Source of the DNA: a virus
Direction: 5' to 3' (one strand)
DNA length: 64,000 bases
Virus record (IMG/VR): IMGVR_UViG_3300020196_000016
Span: 18,595-82,594 of that record
Both the position numbers and the translations under genes were made by a program. Every line of letters starts with the position of its first letter. The first letter of the stretch is position 1. The notes beneath the pieces are model-generated. The model was not told the DNA's origin. It did no database searches and was given only the letters and a program-made list of their open reading frames with translations. This document shows positions 13,891-63,938 of the stretch, piece by piece.

Positions 13891-14079
13891 TTATTCCTCC
13901 AATAGTTTGGGTTTATTGAAATTAGTATCAAAAAAAACAGTTTTATTTATTCTTTGTAATAAAACTACTACTTGCATATTGCCGTAATAATCTACTATTT
14001 CTTCAATAACAAATCCTAATTCTTTTTTACCGTCATACTTTATTTCAACTAGTTTATGCAGATATTTAGATTTCTTCAT
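13891..14079 (-). CDS. Small SH3-like protein, possible distant GD relative
   Basis: 62 aa from the ATG at 14079; upstream sequence is the tRNA-Ile gene. KLVEIKYDGKKELGFVIEEIVDYYGNMQVVVLLQR has the GxV..V and VVVL strands of the family but no GD or PVVK motif. Confidence 0.58.
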   Translation of the reverse strand: MKKSKYLHKLVEIKYDGKKELGFVIEEIVDYYGNMQVVVLLQRINKTVFFDTNFNKPKLLEE

Positions 14080-14081
14080 AG

Positions 14082-14158
14082 TGGTAGACCAGGTGGGAGT
14101 TGCACCCACGACATTCCGCTTATAAGACGGACTCTCTAACTAACTGAGATACTGGTCC
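14082..14158 (-). tRNA. tRNA-Ile (anticodon UAU)
   Basis: 77 nt with encoded CCA. Acceptor GGACCAG pairs with CTGGTCT, D arm TCTC/GAGA, anticodon stem TCCGT/GCGGA, loop CTTATAA giving UAU, T arm GTGGG/CCCAC. It reads AUA, a codon that AT-rich phage genes use freely and GC-richer hosts rarely do. Confidence 0.9.
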
Positions 14159-14161
14159 ATA

Positions 14162-14440
14162 TTATAGTTTGTGATAGTTGAAATAAAACTTTTCAAGATC
14201 AGTTGTGTAAATACATTTCATTTTCTGTGAATAGCATTGTACCAACTTTACATCTTTAAGAACATTTACATTTTGCGGAGATACAAGACCCATTACAATA
14301 ACAACATCATCTTTTTCCATTCTAATCAATTCAAAATTATTAGACGGCTTCAAGATATTATATTCATTATGACGAATCCAGAAAGAGCCGGGACAAACAC
14401 TATTCTGGAAAGTGCTTTTCATTCTATTCTTGCGTCCCAT
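14162..14440 (-). CDS. Hypothetical protein
   Basis: 92 aa, basic N-terminus MGRKNRMKSTFQNS, then FELIRMEKDDVVIVMGLV and KLVQCYSQKMKCIY strands. Possibly SH3-like. Not recognised. Its stop is 3 nt from the tRNA-Ile gene. Confidence 0.58.
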   Translation of the reverse strand: MGRKNRMKSTFQNSVCPGSFWIRHNEYNILKPSNNFELIRMEKDDVVIVMGLVSPQNVNVLKDVKLVQCYSQKMKCIYTTDLEKFYFNYHKL

Positions 14441-14447
14441 ATATCAC

Positions 14448-14681
14448 CTATTTTGCTACTGGATATACAATAACTTCTTTGTTTCTTACCCAATCATTTA
14501 GCAAAGAAAAGCCGACTTTATTATCTTTTGTCTGATCGTAATTATCATAATATTCCCAATGAAAAAGATAATATCCTCCACCATACCAATCATTGTTATT
14601 GATTCTATCAATTATAACACCATTGTATACCAGAAACATTGGATTGTTGACTATCACTAAATCGCCAACATCATATTTCAT
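14448..14681 (-). CDS. GD-PVVK family small protein
   Basis: 77 aa from the ATG at 14681, which overlaps the upstream stop as ATGA. MKYDVGDLVIVNNPMFLVYNGVIIDRI, YLFHWEYYDNYD, then FSLLNDWVRNKEVIVYPVAK. A clear member with Ala in the tail. Confidence 0.82.
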   Translation of the reverse strand: MKYDVGDLVIVNNPMFLVYNGVIIDRINNNDWYGGGYYLFHWEYYDNYDQTKDNKVGFSLLNDWVRNKEVIVYPVAK

Positions 14682-14887
14682 ACAGAAATAACTTTCCACT
14701 TTCCGAACTTGATAAGTTGCTTGATTGTGGATGGATCAGCACCCCACTCTTTATGATCTCCAACATTCCAAAGCATAATATAGTGATACAGCTTATCGTC
14801 CGGGACACGAAGAACAACACCGGTACCACCAGTATCACTTTGGATCAAATCACCAACTTTGATATTGAGATTATTGTTTTCAGTCAT
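14678..14887 (-). CDS. GD-PVVK family small protein
   Basis: 69 aa from the ATG at 14887. LNIKVGDLIQSDTGGTGVVLRVPDD, YIMLWNVGD, ending GKWKVISV: WK and a shortened PV remain. More GC-rich codons than the members at 1-3 kb. Confidence 0.8.
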   Translation of the reverse strand: MTENNNLNIKVGDLIQSDTGGTGVVLRVPDDKLYHYIMLWNVGDHKEWGADPSTIKQLIKFGKWKVISV

Positions 14888-14900
14888 ATTTAACCCAATA

Positions 14901-16172: not shown

Positions 16173-17234
16173 TCACTTCGGCTTCTTACCAGTCAGCAGT
16201 TCCGAAAGAAACTTGGAAGGCGAAGTTCCATCAACATTGATCTGGTGAAGAGCAGTAGTATTTTCCACCATACCCTTACCAAGAACATGCCACATCTTCA
16301 TAGCAGCTTCGGAAGGCAAGCTGATGAAATACCGTGCAAGATTCTCCAACTGATCCTTGGGCATCTTCTTTGCAAGGAAACCCTTGGCCTCAATCTTATC
16401 AATAAGAGCACAATGCTCAATGATACCAAACTTCTTCACCTTATCAAACTTACCATTGACGATAACGTCTTCGGGCGTAACCTGACGATCATACTTCTCC
16501 ACGAAGTCGTGAAGGGCAATCGCAGCCTCATAACCAACAAAACCAACTGCGATATTGCGAATATCCTTCATGTTGTTTTCGCTGAACATATCAGCAGAAG
16601 TCAACACATCATTACAACGCTTCCACGAACGACGAGAAGGATACACCTTATTGGGTTCAAAGTCACCCTTATGCTCAAGGTGTTCACGATTCAGATTGAT
16701 GAAATCGTAAACAAACTGATTAGTATTGTTCTTCGCCCAAGTGAGCCAATCTTCCACAGTAGGCGCAAGATCAAAGGTAGTCCACCGATCAAGTTCGGCG
16801 GGGTCCATCTCACCAACCTGATATTGTGCTCCGCTTTCGCCACCGTTGACAGCGGCAACAATAAGCGTATCGGGATGGAGAGTATGACCGTTCAGCTTAC
16901 GAGAATCAGTAAGTTCAAAGATACCTTGACGAACTTCAATAACTGCACGATCAACTTCATCAAGGAAGAGGAGAACGGCATTATTACACGCCATCTTGAA
17001 CCAGTCCGGGGGATTCCACTTGGTAGAATCACCGGAGATCACGGGCAACCCAACAAGATCACCCTCGGTCATCTGTGATGCACGGCGTTCAACAACCGGA
17101 AGATTCCTTTCCGCTGCAATCTGATACACAACTTGCGACTTGCCAATACCGTGACGACCACGGAGAAGAAGCGGCAACTTATTATCCAGAATCGGCTTAG
17201 CGATACGGAAGAAAGTATTGAAATCGAGCTGCAT
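16173..17234 (-). CDS. MoxR-family AAA+ ATPase
   Basis: 353 aa. Walker A GRHGIGKS (26-33) and Walker B LLFLDEVD (88-95), with an EGDLVGLP segment between them and a sensor region TLIVAAVNGG, as in MoxR-type ATPases. The C-terminal part is helical. MoxR proteins use ATP to remodel partners with VWA domains; the metallopeptidase-VWA protein at 12360 is the obvious partner. It has its own promoter at 17313 and a terminator at 16092, so the two partners are separate transcription units under very similar promoters. Its codons are GC-richer than those of surrounding small genes. Confidence 0.93.
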   Translation of the reverse strand: MQLDFNTFFRIAKPILDNKLPLLLRGRHGIGKSQVVYQIAAERNLPVVERRASQMTEGDLVGLPVISGDSTKWNPPDWFKMACNNAVLLFLDEVDRAVIEVRQGIFELTDSRKLNGHTLHPDTLIVAAVNGGESGAQYQVGEMDPAELDRWTTFDLAPTVEDWLTWAKNNTNQFVYDFINLNREHLEHKGDFEPNKVYPSRRSWKRCNDVLTSADMFSENNMKDIRNIAVGFVGYEAAIALHDFVEKYDRQVTPEDVIVNGKFDKVKKFGIIEHCALIDKIEAKGFLAKKMPKDQLENLARYFISLPSEAAMKMWHVLGKGMVENTTALHQINVDGTSPSKFLSELLTGKKPK

Positions 17235-18591: not shown

Positions 18592-18841
18592 TCTTTTTTA
18601 CCCTTAACTTTTTTAGTCTATTATGTTTGATAATTGATTTGCCACTTTTTGGAACAAACCTTTGCCAATGAACATTGATAAGCCAACAACTATTACCTTT
18701 TTTTACTTCTAAAACAACACCAATATCGTCTTTTTCATATTTATAAAAACGAACAAGCTGTAATGCTTTTGCTCTCATTTGCACGAAATCACCAACTTGG
18801 AATGGTGGTATTTCTTCTGAACTTTTATTTGTCTCACTCAT
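18581..18841 (-). CDS. GD-family SH3-like small protein
   Basis: 86 aa from the ATG at 18841. PPFQVGDFVQMRAKALQL, DDIGVVLEVKKGNSCWLINVHWQRF, then a basic end. It has the GVVLxV and VHW strands and groups with the 12069 and 30404 proteins. No PVVK tail. Confidence 0.76.
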   Translation of the reverse strand: MSETNKSSEEIPPFQVGDFVQMRAKALQLVRFYKYEKDDIGVVLEVKKGNSCWLINVHWQRFVPKSGKSIIKHNRLKKLRVKKNVP

Positions 18842-20946: not shown

Positions 20947-21582
20947 TCATGGTTTTTTAGTTTCTTTAAATAAACTGCTAAATATTCCTGTTTCTGTTGA
21001 TGTTTCTGTTCCTGTTTTTGGTTTTGGTTTTATTACTGTACCGTCAGTAGCAAGTTTTCCTCCGGATATTCCAGAAACTGCTCTTGTAGGTTCATCTCCG
21101 GATATAAATCTGGTTGGTAATTCTGCTACTGGATCTCTTGGTATCTGAAGTTTTATTTTGTCTAATTCTTTTTTTATATTTGAAGTCTTTAACATTATAT
21201 CATGTAGTCTATTAAATTCTTCTGGTGATATTTTAGAAACTTCTATAGCAATATGTGAATTATTAATTATATCTACCGCAATTTGTTGTAATTGTTCTAT
21301 AGTAGATTCTTGTTCTAAATTATCTAAATAATTACGAATTTTTAATAATGAATTTTTTGTTGCTTCTGAAAAATTTTTAACATTAAAACCTTCTCTTGGT
21401 ATTAATATGCTTAATTCTCCTAATAAACGACTAAGTTCTCCAGCTATAGCTGGTTGTTTTTGTATATTAGCTGGACGGCCACCTACTGTACCGCCCCCCT
21501 TAGGTCCTTCTTTTAATAAATTTCTCTGTTTTGTTCTTTGAACTTCTTCATTAATAAGCTTCTTTAATTCGTTTAAATCCAT
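20947..21582 (-). CDS. Hypothetical virion-type protein with N-terminal leader
   Basis: 211 aa. The N-terminus MDLNELKKLINEEVQRTKQR then NLLKEGPKGG resembles the helical leaders of other proteins in this window (63567, 46881), with an LxE site in LLKE. The rest is helical with a Thr/Lys/Pro-rich end. Not recognised. The terminator at 20905 closes the operon. Confidence 0.6.
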   Translation of the reverse strand: MDLNELKKLINEEVQRTKQRNLLKEGPKGGGTVGGRPANIQKQPAIAGELSRLLGELSILIPREGFNVKNFSEATKNSLLKIRNYLDNLEQESTIEQLQQIAVDIINNSHIAIEVSKISPEEFNRLHDIMLKTSNIKKELDKIKLQIPRDPVAELPTRFISGDEPTRAVSGISGGKLATDGTVIKPKPKTGTETSTETGIFSSLFKETKKP

Positions 21583-27365: not shown

Positions 27366-29222
27366 TTATTTTTCTTCTGGTGGCTTGCTTTGATCTTCTT
27401 CTGCTTGGAAGGCAGCAACATTTTCGCTTATAGTTTCGGCATTTTGAATTGCCTTGGTTCCAAAATCGCCCTCTTTTGCTTGTTCTTTTGAAGTCGCAAA
27501 GAAATTAACAAGATTTATATTTAATTCTTGAAATGCTTTAAGCGTGTTATTCATGCTTTCTGCTAAACCAGAAGCAATAGATAATTGTTGTTTATTATAT
27601 TGTTCTGGATTACCAAGATTTAATGGTATTTTATTTGGAATAAGTTGCCAAATGCCTTTAATTGGTATAGAAAATCTTCCTTGTTTTTTTTCATTTTCTT
27701 GTTCGTCTGAACTTTCTACTTCTTGTAATTGTTCTTCATTTTTTGTAGAAGGTTGATTTTGTGCGGCAGACAAAGCCGTTTCTAAACTAGTTTCATATTG
27801 TTTTGCTTTTTGAAGAATATCTGAAAGTGTTTCTAATTTTTGATTTGGCTCTTTAAGTTTTATCAAATCTTCCAATACGGCTCGACTACCATAAGTTGCT
27901 TGTGTTAAATTAGGAACATTTGTACCTCTAAATTCTGGTATTTTTGATAGAATGTTTAAAATATTTTTCAAACTTTCTATAAAACTTCTTTCTTCTACTG
28001 GTATGGAAACACCGGAACGACTTTTCTGTAAATAATTTATTTTATTCTCTTGGGTTGTTTTTTGTATAACTTCTGATGATGATTTTAACTGTTGTAGTTG
28101 TTGTTCGGCAATATCGGCAGGTATTGTTCTGCGACCCATTTGTATAACATTTTTTATTGGCTCTTTAACTGATGGTGTCTTTTCCGGCGTTAATATTGTT
28201 TCATATCCTAATTTGGTTAATTTTTCTTCATTTTCTGTATCAACAACAAGAATACCGCAAGCGCCTTCTTTTACTAGAATTAATCCTGTTGGATATGATT
28301 TAATAATTTTCCATTCATTAGCCGGTAAATGCTGTGGAATATTTGATATAAGTAATTCCGCAAATTCTAATGAATTATTTTCTCTATTAGTAGTTGAAAC
28401 AATATAAGTAATCGGTCTTCCTCTAGTGAGGGCTGCCGTATTTAAATTTTTTGCTGATCCTTTAATTGTAAAATTAGAATCCTTACCTGTAAACATCTTT
28501 AAGCTGTAATCCCAAACTTGTCCTTGCGATTCTTTCGTTACGTCCACAATCTGCTGATCTACTGAACCTAAAACCTTTGCTCCGGTTCCGATTAAAGGAC
28601 GAAGGATATATTCAAACAATTTACCCGGCTGTGCTGTAAAATAAGCAAGTTTTTTTAATAAATTTAAAAATATAAGAGCTGATATAGCTTTTCTTATATC
28701 TTTTGTCTCTACTGGATTATCTGCTGCTGTTTGTGTAAATTCATTTATTTTTTGAATTCTTAGTATCCAATTACCTTTTTCTGTTTCAAGATTACGAACT
28801 ATTCTTGCTATCAGCTTGTTATCTTCGCTTTCCTCTTTCATTTCAGAGTTTGTGATTAATGAAAATATATCTGGAACTTCTATAGTATAACTCTGTGCTT
28901 TTTTTGTTGCTTCATCTTCTCCAATCAAAGCTTCTGTAGATACCCGTAAATGTGGTTGTTTTCCAAAACCATGCTCTTTTGACATCTCATTATAAGAACT
29001 TCTGCTATTACCATTAGCATGATGCGCAACGCCTATTCCTTGTCTAACATTCTCAGGAATAGCATTTGAAACATTGTTTTCACCAAATTTCGTACCGTAT
29101 GGACCGGTTTGCTCGTTCAATACATTATCGATCTCTTCCAATAATTCATTCCAACCAAATTTATTTGATTTGGTTTTAAACTTTTCATCTATTAGCGCAC
29201 CTATATCCAGCGGTTTTTTCAT
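27366..29222 (-). CDS. Large protein with possible PD-(D/E)XK nuclease-like core
   Basis: 618 aa, not firmly recognised. The N-terminus (WNELLEEIDNVLNEQTG, to about residue 40) resembles a cleavable LxE leader. Residues 195-260, QPGKLFEYILRPLIGTG, QQIVDVTKE, DYSLKMF, KGSAKNL, resemble a PD-(D/E)XK arrangement with E204, D226 or D228 and K242. The C-terminal half is helical with Gln/Glu-rich linkers. Possibly an internal virion protein. Not confirmed: alternatives include a structural protein with no activity. Promoter at 27335 sits just past its stop. Confidence 0.55.
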   Translation of the reverse strand: MKKPLDIGALIDEKFKTKSNKFGWNELLEEIDNVLNEQTGPYGTKFGENNVSNAIPENVRQGIGVAHHANGNSRSSYNEMSKEHGFGKQPHLRVSTEALIGEDEATKKAQSYTIEVPDIFSLITNSEMKEESEDNKLIARIVRNLETEKGNWILRIQKINEFTQTAADNPVETKDIRKAISALIFLNLLKKLAYFTAQPGKLFEYILRPLIGTGAKVLGSVDQQIVDVTKESQGQVWDYSLKMFTGKDSNFTIKGSAKNLNTAALTRGRPITYIVSTTNRENNSLEFAELLISNIPQHLPANEWKIIKSYPTGLILVKEGACGILVVDTENEEKLTKLGYETILTPEKTPSVKEPIKNVIQMGRRTIPADIAEQQLQQLKSSSEVIQKTTQENKINYLQKSRSGVSIPVEERSFIESLKNILNILSKIPEFRGTNVPNLTQATYGSRAVLEDLIKLKEPNQKLETLSDILQKAKQYETSLETALSAAQNQPSTKNEEQLQEVESSDEQENEKKQGRFSIPIKGIWQLIPNKIPLNLGNPEQYNKQQLSIASGLAESMNNTLKAFQELNINLVNFFATSKEQAKEGDFGTKAIQNAETISENVAAFQAEEDQSKPPEEK

Positions 29223-29239
29223 TAATCACACCTCTTAAC

Positions 29240-29953
29240 TCAAATAATTATGTCTGCGAGTCCATATTTGACCGCTTCTTCGGCAGAAAGATAGATATTT
29301 ACTTTCTTTTCAAACAATTTCTTGATAAAAGTAACACTCATTTTTGTTTCTGCTGCAAGACACTTGATATACTGTTCTTGTGTATGCTGGATTTCAGCGA
29401 TTTCATTTAGCATTTCATGCTGCGGACCAGCGGTTCCTGCACTTACTTGATGAACCATTACACGACAATGACGACCAATTTTACGCTTTCCTTTGGTTCC
29501 ACTTGCAAGGAGAAGTGTTCCAGCACTCATAACTTGACCAAGACCAAGAGTTTCAATGTCACAATCCTTGCGAACCATTCGCATTGTATCATAGATACCA
29601 AACATATCACTTGCACTTCCACCCGGTGTAGAAATTACAAAATTGATAGGCTGTGATACTTCATCAAATTTTACATCAATACCAGCATCCATATCCTCGT
29701 CTGCAATAGCTTTCTCAAGCTTCTTTTTCTGTACTGCTGTAAGTGGACGTGGTACGCTTTTCATTCGTGTATCATGGAGGTGGAGAAGGCTATATACAAC
29801 AAGTTCTGCCTTCTCTGTATCAAGCTGACCATACAATCCAATCTTACGAGAACCTTTTTGTTCTGGTTCTGAAAGTTGTTTGATTGTATTCATGAAATCA
29901 TCTTCCGATAGCACATTATCTTTTGATTTCTTTTCTGTTGGCTTTTTACGCAT
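29240..29953 (-). CDS. ClpP-family serine protease
   Basis: 237 aa from the ATG at 29953 (AAAGGAAATAT before it). INFVISTPGGSASDMFGIYD gives the oxyanion loop, GQVMSAGTLLL the nucleophile Ser (about 143), and RVMVHQVSAG the catalytic His (about 168). The core is normal for ClpP; the N-terminal 45 residues are a charged extension. Possible roles are maturation or degradation of proteins with a Clp-type ATPase of the host. A prohead-protease role is also possible, as some phages use ClpP-fold proteases (inference). Confidence 0.9.
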   Translation of the reverse strand: MRKKPTEKKSKDNVLSEDDFMNTIKQLSEPEQKGSRKIGLYGQLDTEKAELVVYSLLHLHDTRMKSVPRPLTAVQKKKLEKAIADEDMDAGIDVKFDEVSQPINFVISTPGGSASDMFGIYDTMRMVRKDCDIETLGLGQVMSAGTLLLASGTKGKRKIGRHCRVMVHQVSAGTAGPQHEMLNEIAEIQHTQEQYIKCLAAETKMSVTFIKKLFEKKVNIYLSAEEAVKYGLADIII

Positions 29954-29970
29954 ATATTTCCTTTTGTTAA

Positions 29971-30153
29971 TCAAACTTCAATATCGTCTTCATCATCATC
30001 AGCAAAATTGTTGTAGGCAACTGTCAGATCGCTTAGTAATTTAGAATGACGATCATCTAAATGTGGTTTTTCTTCTAGCCACTCAATAAATTCAGAAAGA
30101 GTTCTGGCAACTCCATTCCATTGAGCTAAGTTTCCAGCCGTAATCTTTTTCAT
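29971..30153 (-). CDS. Hypothetical acidic protein
   Basis: 60 aa. NLAQWNGVARTLSEFIEWLE and an acidic end FADDDEDDIEV. Not recognised. Followed directly by ClpP. Confidence 0.6.
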   Translation of the reverse strand: MKKITAGNLAQWNGVARTLSEFIEWLEEKPHLDDRHSKLLSDLTVAYNNFADDDEDDIEV

Positions 30154-31615: not shown

Positions 31616-32398
31616 TCAACGTTTATTTTTTGATTCTTTTACAAGGCGGGCAGCAACACGACTTGTTAATCTTTCTACCATTTCTTGCATTTGTTCTTCT
31701 TCGTCACCTTCTGGTGGCGCGTCACCTTCTGGTGAAGCTTCTTCGTCACCTTCTGGTGAAGCTTCTTTGTCACCTTCATCACCGCGTGAAATATCCATTT
31801 GAACTCCATATTGGGATGCCATATTTTTTAATGTATCCAACATGTTGTTGATTAGATCTTTCATTTTTGAAGCGTGTTCTGGACTTTCACCGGCAGCATC
31901 ACTTGAAGTATCAGCGCCTTCTGGTGCTTCTGGAGCATCCATTTCTTCTTCCATTTCAGCTTCGTTATAACCTTCTTCCAGTGATTCACTTACAACTTCG
32001 AATTCACCACGATTTGGTTTACGATCACTGGCATTTGATTTGCCACCGGTTTCATCAGCGACACTTACATTACCTTTACCAACTGAATGATGTGTTCCTG
32101 CTTTTAGTGGCTTCATTGTTCCCGGTGATTTAACAGATTCAGCACCATCGATTCCTTGTTTTGGCTTTGCAACACCTTTAACTTTTTGTTTTGGTGAACC
32201 GGGACGGCCTTCACTTTCTTTACCTTCTTCTGTTACATCGCCCTCTTCAACAACTTCTTCTTCAAGGGCTTCTTCTTCTAATTGACCTTCTTCTTGTTTA
32301 TAATCTGATTCTTTCAAGAATTTATCGGTTAATGGCTGTAGATTAGCCAATTTCATAAAGCTGCGGATTGTGCTTTCTTCTAATAGTTTCTTACTCAT
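31616..32398 (-). CDS. Acidic low-complexity protein, possible head-core component
   Basis: 260 aa, very rich in Glu, Asp, Gly and Pro. The N-terminal helix (LLEESTIRSFMKLANLQPLT then FLKESDYKQEEG) has LxE sites. Near the C-terminus short repeats of the type SPEGDEEA occur, matched by about 27-nt DNA repeats at 31690-31770. The composition resembles scaffold or prohead-core proteins, but no family was recognised. The end VERLTSRVAARLVKES is helical. Confidence 0.6.
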   Translation of the reverse strand: MSKKLLEESTIRSFMKLANLQPLTDKFLKESDYKQEEGQLEEEALEEEVVEEGDVTEEGKESEGRPGSPKQKVKGVAKPKQGIDGAESVKSPGTMKPLKAGTHHSVGKGNVSVADETGGKSNASDRKPNRGEFEVVSESLEEGYNEAEMEEEMDAPEAPEGADTSSDAAGESPEHASKMKDLINNMLDTLKNMASQYGVQMDISRGDEGDKEASPEGDEEASPEGDAPPEGDEEEQMQEMVERLTSRVAARLVKESKNKR

Positions 32399-46880: not shown

Positions 46881-47477
46881 TTATCGTATCTTTTCAAATT
46901 TATCTTGTTTTTCTTTTTCACCAGAGAAAAATATAGCAACATTATGTAGTTTTTTTGAACTATCACTTCCTACATCATGCCATCTTTTCATAAATTCGTC
47001 AATAGAAACAATGCCGACTTTATTGTAGAGTGATGGATCTCGTATATATAAAGTTTTTTCATCGATGCCAATTAGAACAGCATAATGGCCATCTTTCCAA
47101 TCTTTTTCCCATTTTGGGCTCTTTTCATCTGACCATGCTTGAAAATTTAATATAACAGGATTTCCAGCATTAATAGATTTTTTTAATTCTGATATATCTG
47201 TATTTTCTTTAACTCTGCAGTTAAGACCATGTTTTTTTGCAACTTCTTTTATTTTTGCTAAAGAAGTGCCGTCTTGACTATTTGTGTTAAGTTCTTTTGA
47301 TAGTTCTTTTTCGTTCTTTTCATATAAATCATAAAATGATAAAATTGCAAGCAAACTTGCCGAACCACAACTATAATCGTTAAATTGGCGTATATCTGGA
47401 ACATCAAGAAGTTTTGGTTTCTTCTTTGGTTCTTTTTCTTCTAAAAATCTACGCCATTCAGTTAAAAATTCTTTCAT
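46881..47477 (-). CDS. C39-like cysteine peptidase with capsid-targeting-like leader
   Basis: 198 aa. The N-terminus MKEFLTEWRRFLEEKEPKKK matches the leader of the 47744 protein almost exactly. The peptidase domain reads VPDIRQFNDYSCGSASLLAIL with catalytic Cys (37), GHYAVLIGID with His (131) and IRDPSL with Asp (147), the order of C39-like peptidases that trim leader peptides after double-Gly or similar sites. There is no membrane or ATPase part, so it is a free peptidase. Targets unknown. The FLEE site would allow removal of the leader by a prohead protease (inference). Confidence 0.82.
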   Translation of the reverse strand: MKEFLTEWRRFLEEKEPKKKPKLLDVPDIRQFNDYSCGSASLLAILSFYDLYEKNEKELSKELNTNSQDGTSLAKIKEVAKKHGLNCRVKENTDISELKKSINAGNPVILNFQAWSDEKSPKWEKDWKDGHYAVLIGIDEKTLYIRDPSLYNKVGIVSIDEFMKRWHDVGSDSSKKLHNVAIFFSGEKEKQDKFEKIR

Positions 47478-47480
47478 AAA

Positions 47481-47747
47481 TTAAATAGACTTTTTATTTT
47501 TATAAAGATATTTGTAATAGCCAATTATAGATAAAAGAATAAGATTAAAAACATAATTTACAATAAGAGGCAAAGAATAACGTTCAAACCATACATAAAT
47601 TATTGTAAATATTTCACCAAAAAACCATAACCAAAATAGACCATGACTAAAGCCGTCAGCATGTTTTTGTTTTAAAGTATCAATAACTTGTGGCAAAGCA
47701 CAGATAGCAAAACAAAAACTTCCTAACCAACCAATTACTTCCATCAA
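47481..47747 (-). CDS. PQ-loop / SemiSWEET-like membrane protein
   Basis: 88 aa, three transmembrane helices: IGWLGSFCFAICALPQVIDT with the ALPQ kink, then GLFWLWFFGEIFTIIYVW and LPLIVNYVFNLILLSIIGYY. This matches the bacterial SemiSWEET unit (about 85-95 aa, three helices, PQ motif in the first), which dimerises to carry small sugars. Unusual in a phage. ATGA overlap with the C45 gene upstream and 3 nt from the C39 gene downstream, so one operon. Substrate is unknown. Confidence 0.82.
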   Translation of the reverse strand: MMEVIGWLGSFCFAICALPQVIDTLKQKHADGFSHGLFWLWFFGEIFTIIYVWFERYSLPLIVNYVFNLILLSIIGYYKYLYKNKKSI

Positions 47748-48805
47748 TAATTTACCTCAATATAATCAGTTTTACAAGGATTTCCATCGCCATAAAAAAA
47801 TTTTCTTTTTGTTGGTAAAAATATTACTGAAAACACTGTTGCACTTTCATTTTTATCTTTTGTATGCCGACAAAGACCACCTTCGCCATGAGAAGATAAA
47901 ATCTCTTTCATTTTATCAATTCGCATATCTTCTTCTAAATCTTCGCCCATGCCAATAGCTTTTTTCAATCTTTTTATTGAATCTTTTAATGACTTTCCTT
48001 CACGACCTTCTTTTGATTTTAACCAAAGAAAATGATTGGTATGAACATCAACTCCATCTTTATGATTTACTTTTTTTTCTTTTTCTGCACTACCCTCAAG
48101 TGTTATTATTTTACCGGTTTCATCGCTAACAACATTAGCAAATGCACTTGCACGTTTTGGATGAAGCAATAAAGATTCTGCCTCTTTTAATGTTTTAGAA
48201 AATAAAGCTTCCATATAGAGCATCATTCTTGGAATACCTGGTGTTGTATCGTTTGCGTCGACTTGACAACCAGAAAAAACAAGACCAACATTGTTTACAC
48301 CAATTGAAGGTACACCTCTAGTAAAAGAAGCATATATTGTTGGTTTATTTTTTATTTCTAATTTTATTAATCTTGAACCATCTCCTGGTCTTTCATCATT
48401 ATTGTGACCCATAATAACGTTATCACCGTCTTTAACAAAGACATCGGTGCAACCTTCGTCTTTTAATTTAGTTTTATCTTTTTCTTTTGCAAACCACAAT
48501 TCTTCATACCACATACCAAATGCTTCATCTGGTTTTATTTCAGCACCTTCTGCTAAACCTTCAATAAATTCATATGTAATCGGAGTATGCTGTTTAGAAA
48601 GTTTTTTACCTTTTTCCATCCAATCACTAAAATCTTCTATTAGTTTTTCAATTTTATAAGCTTTAACTGCATTGTTTATCTGTTTTTTAAGTATTTTACC
48701 AATAGAAGAGCCAGCTTCATGTGCTGAAGCTGATTTAATTTCTTTTAATGGTCTTGTTTTACCTTCTTTTAAGAATTTACGCCATTCAGTTATAATTTCT
48801 TTCAT
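47744..48805 (-). CDS. C45-like acyltransferase/peptidase with the same leader
   Basis: 353 aa. Leader MKEIITEWRKFLKEGKTRPL (LxE site FLKE). The C45 (penicillin acyltransferase, Ntn-hydrolase) core: an N-terminal helical part, then DEGCTDVFVKDGDNVIMGHNNDERP with the nucleophile Cys at about 119 after the self-cleaving Gly-Cys bond, GVPSIGVNNVGLVFSGCQ, ANVVSDETGKIITLEG, DVHTNHF, and RHTKDKNESATVFSVI. The family cleaves or forms amide bonds on acyl amino-acid derivatives or peptides. Substrate unknown. Very unusual in a phage; the shared leader suggests it enters the virion (inference). Confidence 0.82.
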   Translation of the reverse strand: MKEIITEWRKFLKEGKTRPLKEIKSASAHEAGSSIGKILKKQINNAVKAYKIEKLIEDFSDWMEKGKKLSKQHTPITYEFIEGLAEGAEIKPDEAFGMWYEELWFAKEKDKTKLKDEGCTDVFVKDGDNVIMGHNNDERPGDGSRLIKLEIKNKPTIYASFTRGVPSIGVNNVGLVFSGCQVDANDTTPGIPRMMLYMEALFSKTLKEAESLLLHPKRASAFANVVSDETGKIITLEGSAEKEKKVNHKDGVDVHTNHFLWLKSKEGREGKSLKDSIKRLKKAIGMGEDLEEDMRIDKMKEILSSHGEGGLCRHTKDKNESATVFSVIFLPTKRKFFYGDGNPCKTDYIEVNY

Positions 48806-63566: not shown

Positions 63567-63938
63567 TTATTTTGATTTTTTATTTTCATAAACAGTTTTA
63601 GGACTGTTAGGATTGTTTCCGCGTTCCATATCAACTTCTCTTTGGATTAGATCGATAAGAGCATTCCGATTAACTCTTCCATCTGGATCCATAACTTCTT
63701 TTGGTAATTGTGGTAGTATTTGTTTAATTTTTTCAATTGTCGCCGTATCTCTCGTTGGTGTTCCACCTGCTTGTATATTTTTTACCATATCAGCAAATGC
63801 CGATGCACTTACTCCTTGACTTGAAAATTTTTTCATTAATTGAAATAATTCGTGAGCAGGACTAGAAGTTGGTTGTCCCATCATCTCTTCCAATTCTTCT
63901 TTAATTATCTGCTTTAATCTATCTCGTGTTAATTTCAT
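63567..63938 (-). CDS. Hypothetical protein with helical leader
   Basis: 123 aa from the ATG at 63938, preceded by GGGAGAAAACAC; the longer frame to 63995 is not credible. The start MKLTRDRLKQIIKEELEEMM is a basic-then-acidic amphipathic helix with IxE/LxE sites, as in head-packaged phage proteins. The rest is helical (ELFQLMKKFSSQGVSASAFA). A terminator follows at 63537. Not recognised. Confidence 0.62.
   Translation of the reverse strand: MKLTRDRLKQIIKEELEEMMGQPTSSPAHELFQLMKKFSSQGVSASAFADMVKNIQAGGTPTRDTATIEKIKQILPQLPKEVMDPDGRVNRNALIDLIQREVDMERGNNPNSPKTVYENKKSK

Follow-up and report, generated by a model that had tools for sequence, protein, structure and literature searches.

The proteins that phages inject from the virion are difficult to identify by sequence, and few model phages have supplied examples; T4 Alt and IPI are injected takeover or anti-defence proteins. 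IPII and IPIII of T4 both start with MKTYQEFIAE, and the start of IPI is longer and includes ITE. The capsid-targeting sequence (CTS) of T4 comprises residues 1-10 of IPIII, of which 4 and 7 act mainly in targeting and 8 and 10 in processing (PMC9026906). A comparable N-terminal start, here called the leader, is carried by two unrelated enzymes encoded in a 64,000-nucleotide stretch of viral DNA (the window), which spans positions 18,595 to 82,594 of IMG/VR record IMGVR_UViG_3300020196_000016, a linear record of 82,594 bases (82.6 kb). The sequence evidence strongly supports the leader working like the T4 CTS, and it is most probably a T4-type capsid-targeting sequence, trimmed by a prohead protease, for effectors injected from the virion.

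The leader pair and its T4 counterpart

The original prediction drew attention to a C39-like peptidase and a C45-like enzyme, different proteins with nearly identical first 14 residues ending in LxE. Both open reading frames (ORFs) and both N-termini are exactly as claimed, Pfam assigns the two proteins to unrelated domains (Peptidase_C39_2 and AAT; Table 1), and both leaders do end in LxE. The leader DNA of the pair is identical at 37 of 42 positions, the following 42 nt at only 16 of 42. The two proteins cluster in an all-against-all comparison of N-termini across the record, and the same comparison at residues 41-54 of the record's proteins gave no cluster. The leader pair is real, not a chance resemblance. 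In the whole 82.6-kb record, the strict leader W[RK]x[FY][LI]xE is found on only these two ORFs.

The C39-like protein has a papain-like C39 domain with Cys, His and Asp (C37, H131 and D147, invariant in three orthologues), and the C45-like enzyme is assigned by its sequence to the AAT domain and has a GCT motif. In an AlphaFold model of the C39 protein, built from three sequences and with low confidence (pLDDT) for the leader, a helix is predicted at residues 2-14, followed by a low-confidence linker and then the enzyme domain. The AAT-C39 pair is retained, with leaders on both genes and the genes directly adjacent, in two close relatives (G044 and G045, DnaE 91-95%) and in a third (G043, AAT 73%), so the PQ-loop gene that lies between them in the window phage looks inserted. 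In DnaE relatives at a greater distance (62-64%), 3-5 leader genes are grouped into cassettes spanning a few kb.

In an alignment anchored at the cut site, Y4, F7, I8 and E10 of T4 correspond to W8, F11, L12 and E14 of the leader. The proposed T4-type leader with a prohead-protease pattern is borne out at this level, with W8/F11/L12/E14 matching the CTS and a recurrent [LI]xE end; the residue correspondence is a pattern match and not proof of homology.

Distribution, cargo and selection of the leader

A degenerate DNA pattern of the leader matched 63 stretches with 89 ORFs in IMG/VR. Looser patterns with positions 10-14 left free brought out the dialects MKKL..EWR, MKL[LI]ME[NQ]WR and MKE...EWR; among the matches listed, E14 was found in 55/62, 89/125 and 26/34 of the distinct proteins in three looser sets. 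Position 11 is mostly F or Y in these sets and position 12 mostly L, I or V, and variability rises sharply from position 15. That the unconstrained positions 11-14 still read [FY][LI]xE supports selection for the LxE end. After widening, at least 349 leader proteins on at least 185 contigs, with at least 140 cargo families, were found in IMG/VR. Leader genes often lie in cassettes of 2-4 kb and reach a maximum of 8 per contig among the contigs listed.

In 13 genomes with up to 9 matches to the true pattern, the reversed one matched nowhere. Bacterial and archaeal genomes (257 Gb) gave one match to the strict pattern. This sole cellular match, MKEIITEWRKYLAEANRKTN (L522:4812, CP070825.1), lies in a metagenome-assembled genome of Candidatus Aminicenantes and may be chance, a prophage or a misbinned phage. 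The leader DNA pattern was not found in T4, RM378, immuto, Mel-JY01 or LR756508, and the search thus gave no cultured carrier of the dialect among these five. Against cultured phages, a composite two-leader query gave no match (a weak test, the query being short), nor did the AAT enzyme. The leader motif strings were not found in the literature searched. At G153:53480 (L477), inside a leader cassette, a leader ORF, MKLLFENWRRSLNE, comprises precisely 14 codons with a stop immediately after them.

The cargo was annotated with 106 representatives against Pfam and PHROGs, and most had no assignment. Among recognisable domains were ART-PolyVal (3), GNAT acetyltransferases (3), AAA/polynucleotide-kinase-like proteins, zeta toxin, SAM lyase, protein kinase, C5 DNA methyltransferase, NUDIX, M23 peptidase and an RNase T-type exonuclease. 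By analogy, this chemistry suggests injected takeover or anti-defence proteins, of which it would be expected. Alternatively, the leader could target the prohead while its cargo consists of core or assembly proteins that are active in head building or degraded, and are not injected. Such a role would suit the lack of a recognised function in most cargo families and a 375-aa leader protein near an S77 protease gene on a 7.6-kb contig; it is nevertheless unlikely, since the recognisable cargo is host-directed (ART-PolyVal, GNAT, kinase, SAM lyase, zeta toxin, DNA methyltransferase) and cargo sets vary between genomes, unlike conserved core genes. The family phrog_36119 matches both a leaderless gene of the window record (L001:676-2337) and one leader-bearing A2 representative, and its occurrence with and without leader is as expected if the tag is modular.

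The boundaries of the leader were compared in 358 same-genome pairs with unrelated cargo. The leader DNA was 0.74 identical, as against 0.35 at positions -10 to -1, 0.28 at -30 to -11 and 0.28 in the gene body; the similarity begins at the ATG and ends at [LI]xE. Differences within the leader are most frequent at codon position 3 and least at position 2, and codons for the same residue differ in 39% of cases, as against 60% expected for independent draws. Both observations indicate that leaders are partly copied between genes and kept by peptide selection. A common start could in principle be a by-product of recombination copying the 5' gene end (start region and translation signal) with no function of the peptide, and the 37/42 identity of the pair and the deficit of synonymous differences, which points to some recent copying, would suit such an origin. 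It is already disfavoured, and highly improbable, as the upstream DNA is at background, the similarity ends at LxE, changes fall mostly at third codon positions and displaced LxE sites are kept. The last point concerns 54 proteins without an in-place [LIVM]xE, of which 65%, among the matches listed, have [LI]xE within residues 11-22 (for example KYVLTEG, REVLNEA and KLLNES), compared with 6-31% in seven downstream control windows. This set pools matches to the first pattern, in which E14 is forced, and in-place rates are therefore taken from the looser sets.

Leader similarity was 0.68 for unrelated cargo in the same genome, 0.61 for homologous cargo in other genomes and 0.55 for unrelated pairs, and none of 500 label permutations reached the observed genome effect (the pairs are not independent). 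Genome-specific similarity is expected from co-adaptation of leaders to their own head core; recombination within genomes may contribute.

Head protease, capsid site and proposed mechanism

An S77 (gp21-type) protease is encoded in 11 of 11 tested contigs of at least 150 kb with genuine leaders, including the DnaE relative G158 (161.7 kb), which has both a leader cassette and S77. Pattern matches MKELLKEWSDSG in G050 and G051 were judged not to be genuine leaders and were excluded from this count. Of 95 leader contigs, mostly fragments, 30 have an S77 gene. A gp23-type capsid protein is common to 17 S77-positive leader phages. At the LTE-A column of T4 gp23, the known gp23 cleavage site, each of the 17 proteins reads L[KR]E with A, S, Q, T or N as the next residue; this count covers relatives with leaders, the capsid gene of the window phage lying outside the fragment. 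A ClpP-like protein of the window (29240-29974) was weighed as a candidate maturation protease but dropped, given that the leader relatives have S77.

The proposed mechanism is as follows. Folded as a short amphipathic helix (L4/L5, W8, F11, L12), the leader would bind the core of the prohead, whereby the tagged protein would be built into the prohead. A gp21-type (S77) protease would then cut after [LI]xE (LEE in the C39-like peptidase, LKE in the AAT enzyme), and the mature enzyme would stay in the head, enter the host with the DNA and act at the start of infection. Many effector genes would thus share one modular label as an address. What we infer from the evidence above is the core binding, the cleavage, the injection and the host roles of the C39 and AAT enzymes. 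The leader might instead be some other address: it could bind membranes, mark the protein for degradation or direct it to the tail or to a compartment. An amphipathic helix is indeed capable of membrane binding; the conserved LxE end, the S77 gene in all near-complete leader genomes and the residue match with the T4 CTS would then be left unexplained, and an address of this kind has very little probability.

Several observations weigh against a protease-trimmed, head-targeting leader. The prohead protease sought in the window phage was not recovered, as S77 and S78 searches of the 82.6-kb record were empty, a result that is uninformative for a fragment. S77 was also present in 9 of 50 random contigs, and its density per base is no higher in leader contigs than in these. 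With per-base rates so similar, the presence of the protease is required by the proposal but is no sign of enrichment, and S77 frequency was dropped as an enrichment test. About 35% of the proteins without in-place [LIVM]xE also have no [LI]xE in residues 11-22, and a family of 199-aa proteins retains the helix without an early LxE. The C39 leader of the window would leave Lys after the cut, which is rare among leaders. Finally, a paper on Baltic Flavobacterium phages, in which immuto is unnamed, yielded no virion proteomics.

The candidate virion-targeting signal of the original prediction nonetheless gains support from the modular cargo, the LxE end kept by selection, the S77 protease and LxE capsid sites of relatives, and the effector-like cargo. 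More widely, we lean towards the view that a large uncultured clade of T4-like phages equips its virions with host-modifying enzymes from considerably more than 100 families through interchangeable N-terminal labels, of at least two classes and with dialects matched to their own head core, so that the injected repertoire may be readable from sequence. The novelty lies in the scale, in the dialects and in how varied the cargo is. With a readable tag that ends at a protease site, candidate injected effectors could be marked by the hundred in uncultured phages. Many of them may serve in early takeover or against host defences, and the old question of what enters the cell along with phage DNA would become open to direct test.

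Further leader classes and comparison with known systems

A second class of leader, MKITK.QLK.IIKEEL, was found by unbiased N-terminal clustering on 9 genes in G019 and 7 in G001; at control positions of these two genomes the class formed no cluster. One of its genes (14521-14892) directly follows the S77 gene (13928-14524) in G019, and another lies one gene further in G001 (16814-17200). Looser leaders had been predicted at four places in the window. Those at 20947 and 63567 fit the second class, the latter with its likely true start at 63938, MKLTRDRLKQIIKEEL. The start at 31616 is doubtful and weakly resembles a type of the cultured Flavobacterium phage immuto (NC_055915), and that at 27366 was rejected, as it matches nothing found in the analysis. 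Immuto has FDLKKFL.ENKLT.NS..L.E starts on four genes and RMQKLAGIITE-like starts, the type that 31616 resembles, on two; both types end in LxE or IxE on different proteins (1803, 103806, 117631, 118632, 25060 and 111675). Having its own repeated leaders, immuto is a culturable test case.

Table 1. Leader genes and associated features of the window (window coordinates).
Feature	Position	Strand	Remarks
C39-like cysteine peptidase with leader, 198 aa	46881..47477	-	PF13529 (Peptidase_C39_2) 1.7e-16, from residue 24
Leader of C39-like peptidase, MKEFLTEWRRFLEE, predicted cut after LEE	47436..47477	-	
PQ-loop membrane protein, 88 aa, without leader, between the two leader genes	47481..47747	-	PF04193 3.8e-14
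AAT/C45-like Ntn-hydrolase-type enzyme with leader, 353 aa	47744..48805	-	PF03417 (AAT) 1.9e-14, residues 126-336
Leader of AAT/C45-like enzyme, MKEIITEWRKFLKE, predicted cut after LKE	48764..48805	-	
211-aa protein with class-2 leader MDLNELKKLINEEVQRTKQRNLLKE	20947..21582	-	
Protein with class-2 leader MKLTRDRLKQIIKEELEEMM	63567..63938	-	start inferred inside listed ORF
Acidic 260-aa protein, possible third leader type STIRSFMKLANLQPLTDKFLKE, doubtful	31616..32398	-	

Two other regions of the record (L001) are peculiar. Between about 10800 and 15500 of the record, G+C content is 55-61% in an otherwise about 30% G+C sequence, with foreign-looking ORFs, possibly a chimeric assembly or an insertion. 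From about 16600 of the record to about 14500 of the window, around a dozen small ORFs (64-82 aa) start with MKY.[IV]GDL[FI] and probably form a small paralogous family.

The closest described system is the T4 CTS of IPI, IPII, IPIII and Alt, likewise a short N-terminal start common to unrelated proteins. The two have the same aromatic-x-x-F-[IL]-x-E core, the [LI]xE end and, as seen in leader relatives of the window phage, host genomes with a gp21-type protease, and the cut site of IPI is displaced, as in some leader proteins. The leader differs in being four residues longer than that of IPII and IPIII, in its invariant WR, in its genome-specific dialects and in its roughly 140 cargo families versus a handful for the T4 CTS; it is known from sequence alone. 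Head proteins of phiKZ and SPN3US have propeptides that are likewise cut after xxE by a gp21 relative, and two SPN3US paralogues have a common 15-residue start (PMC5694885). These propeptides are mostly long, however, with S/AxE motifs, and no single short tag is placed on many unrelated enzymes. Phages and plasmids also encode polyvalent proteins, which have been proposed as co-injected effectors (PMC5512222) and share the ART-PolyVal domain with leader cargo; they combine many domains in one chain, whereas leader cargo consists of small separate proteins under one tag.
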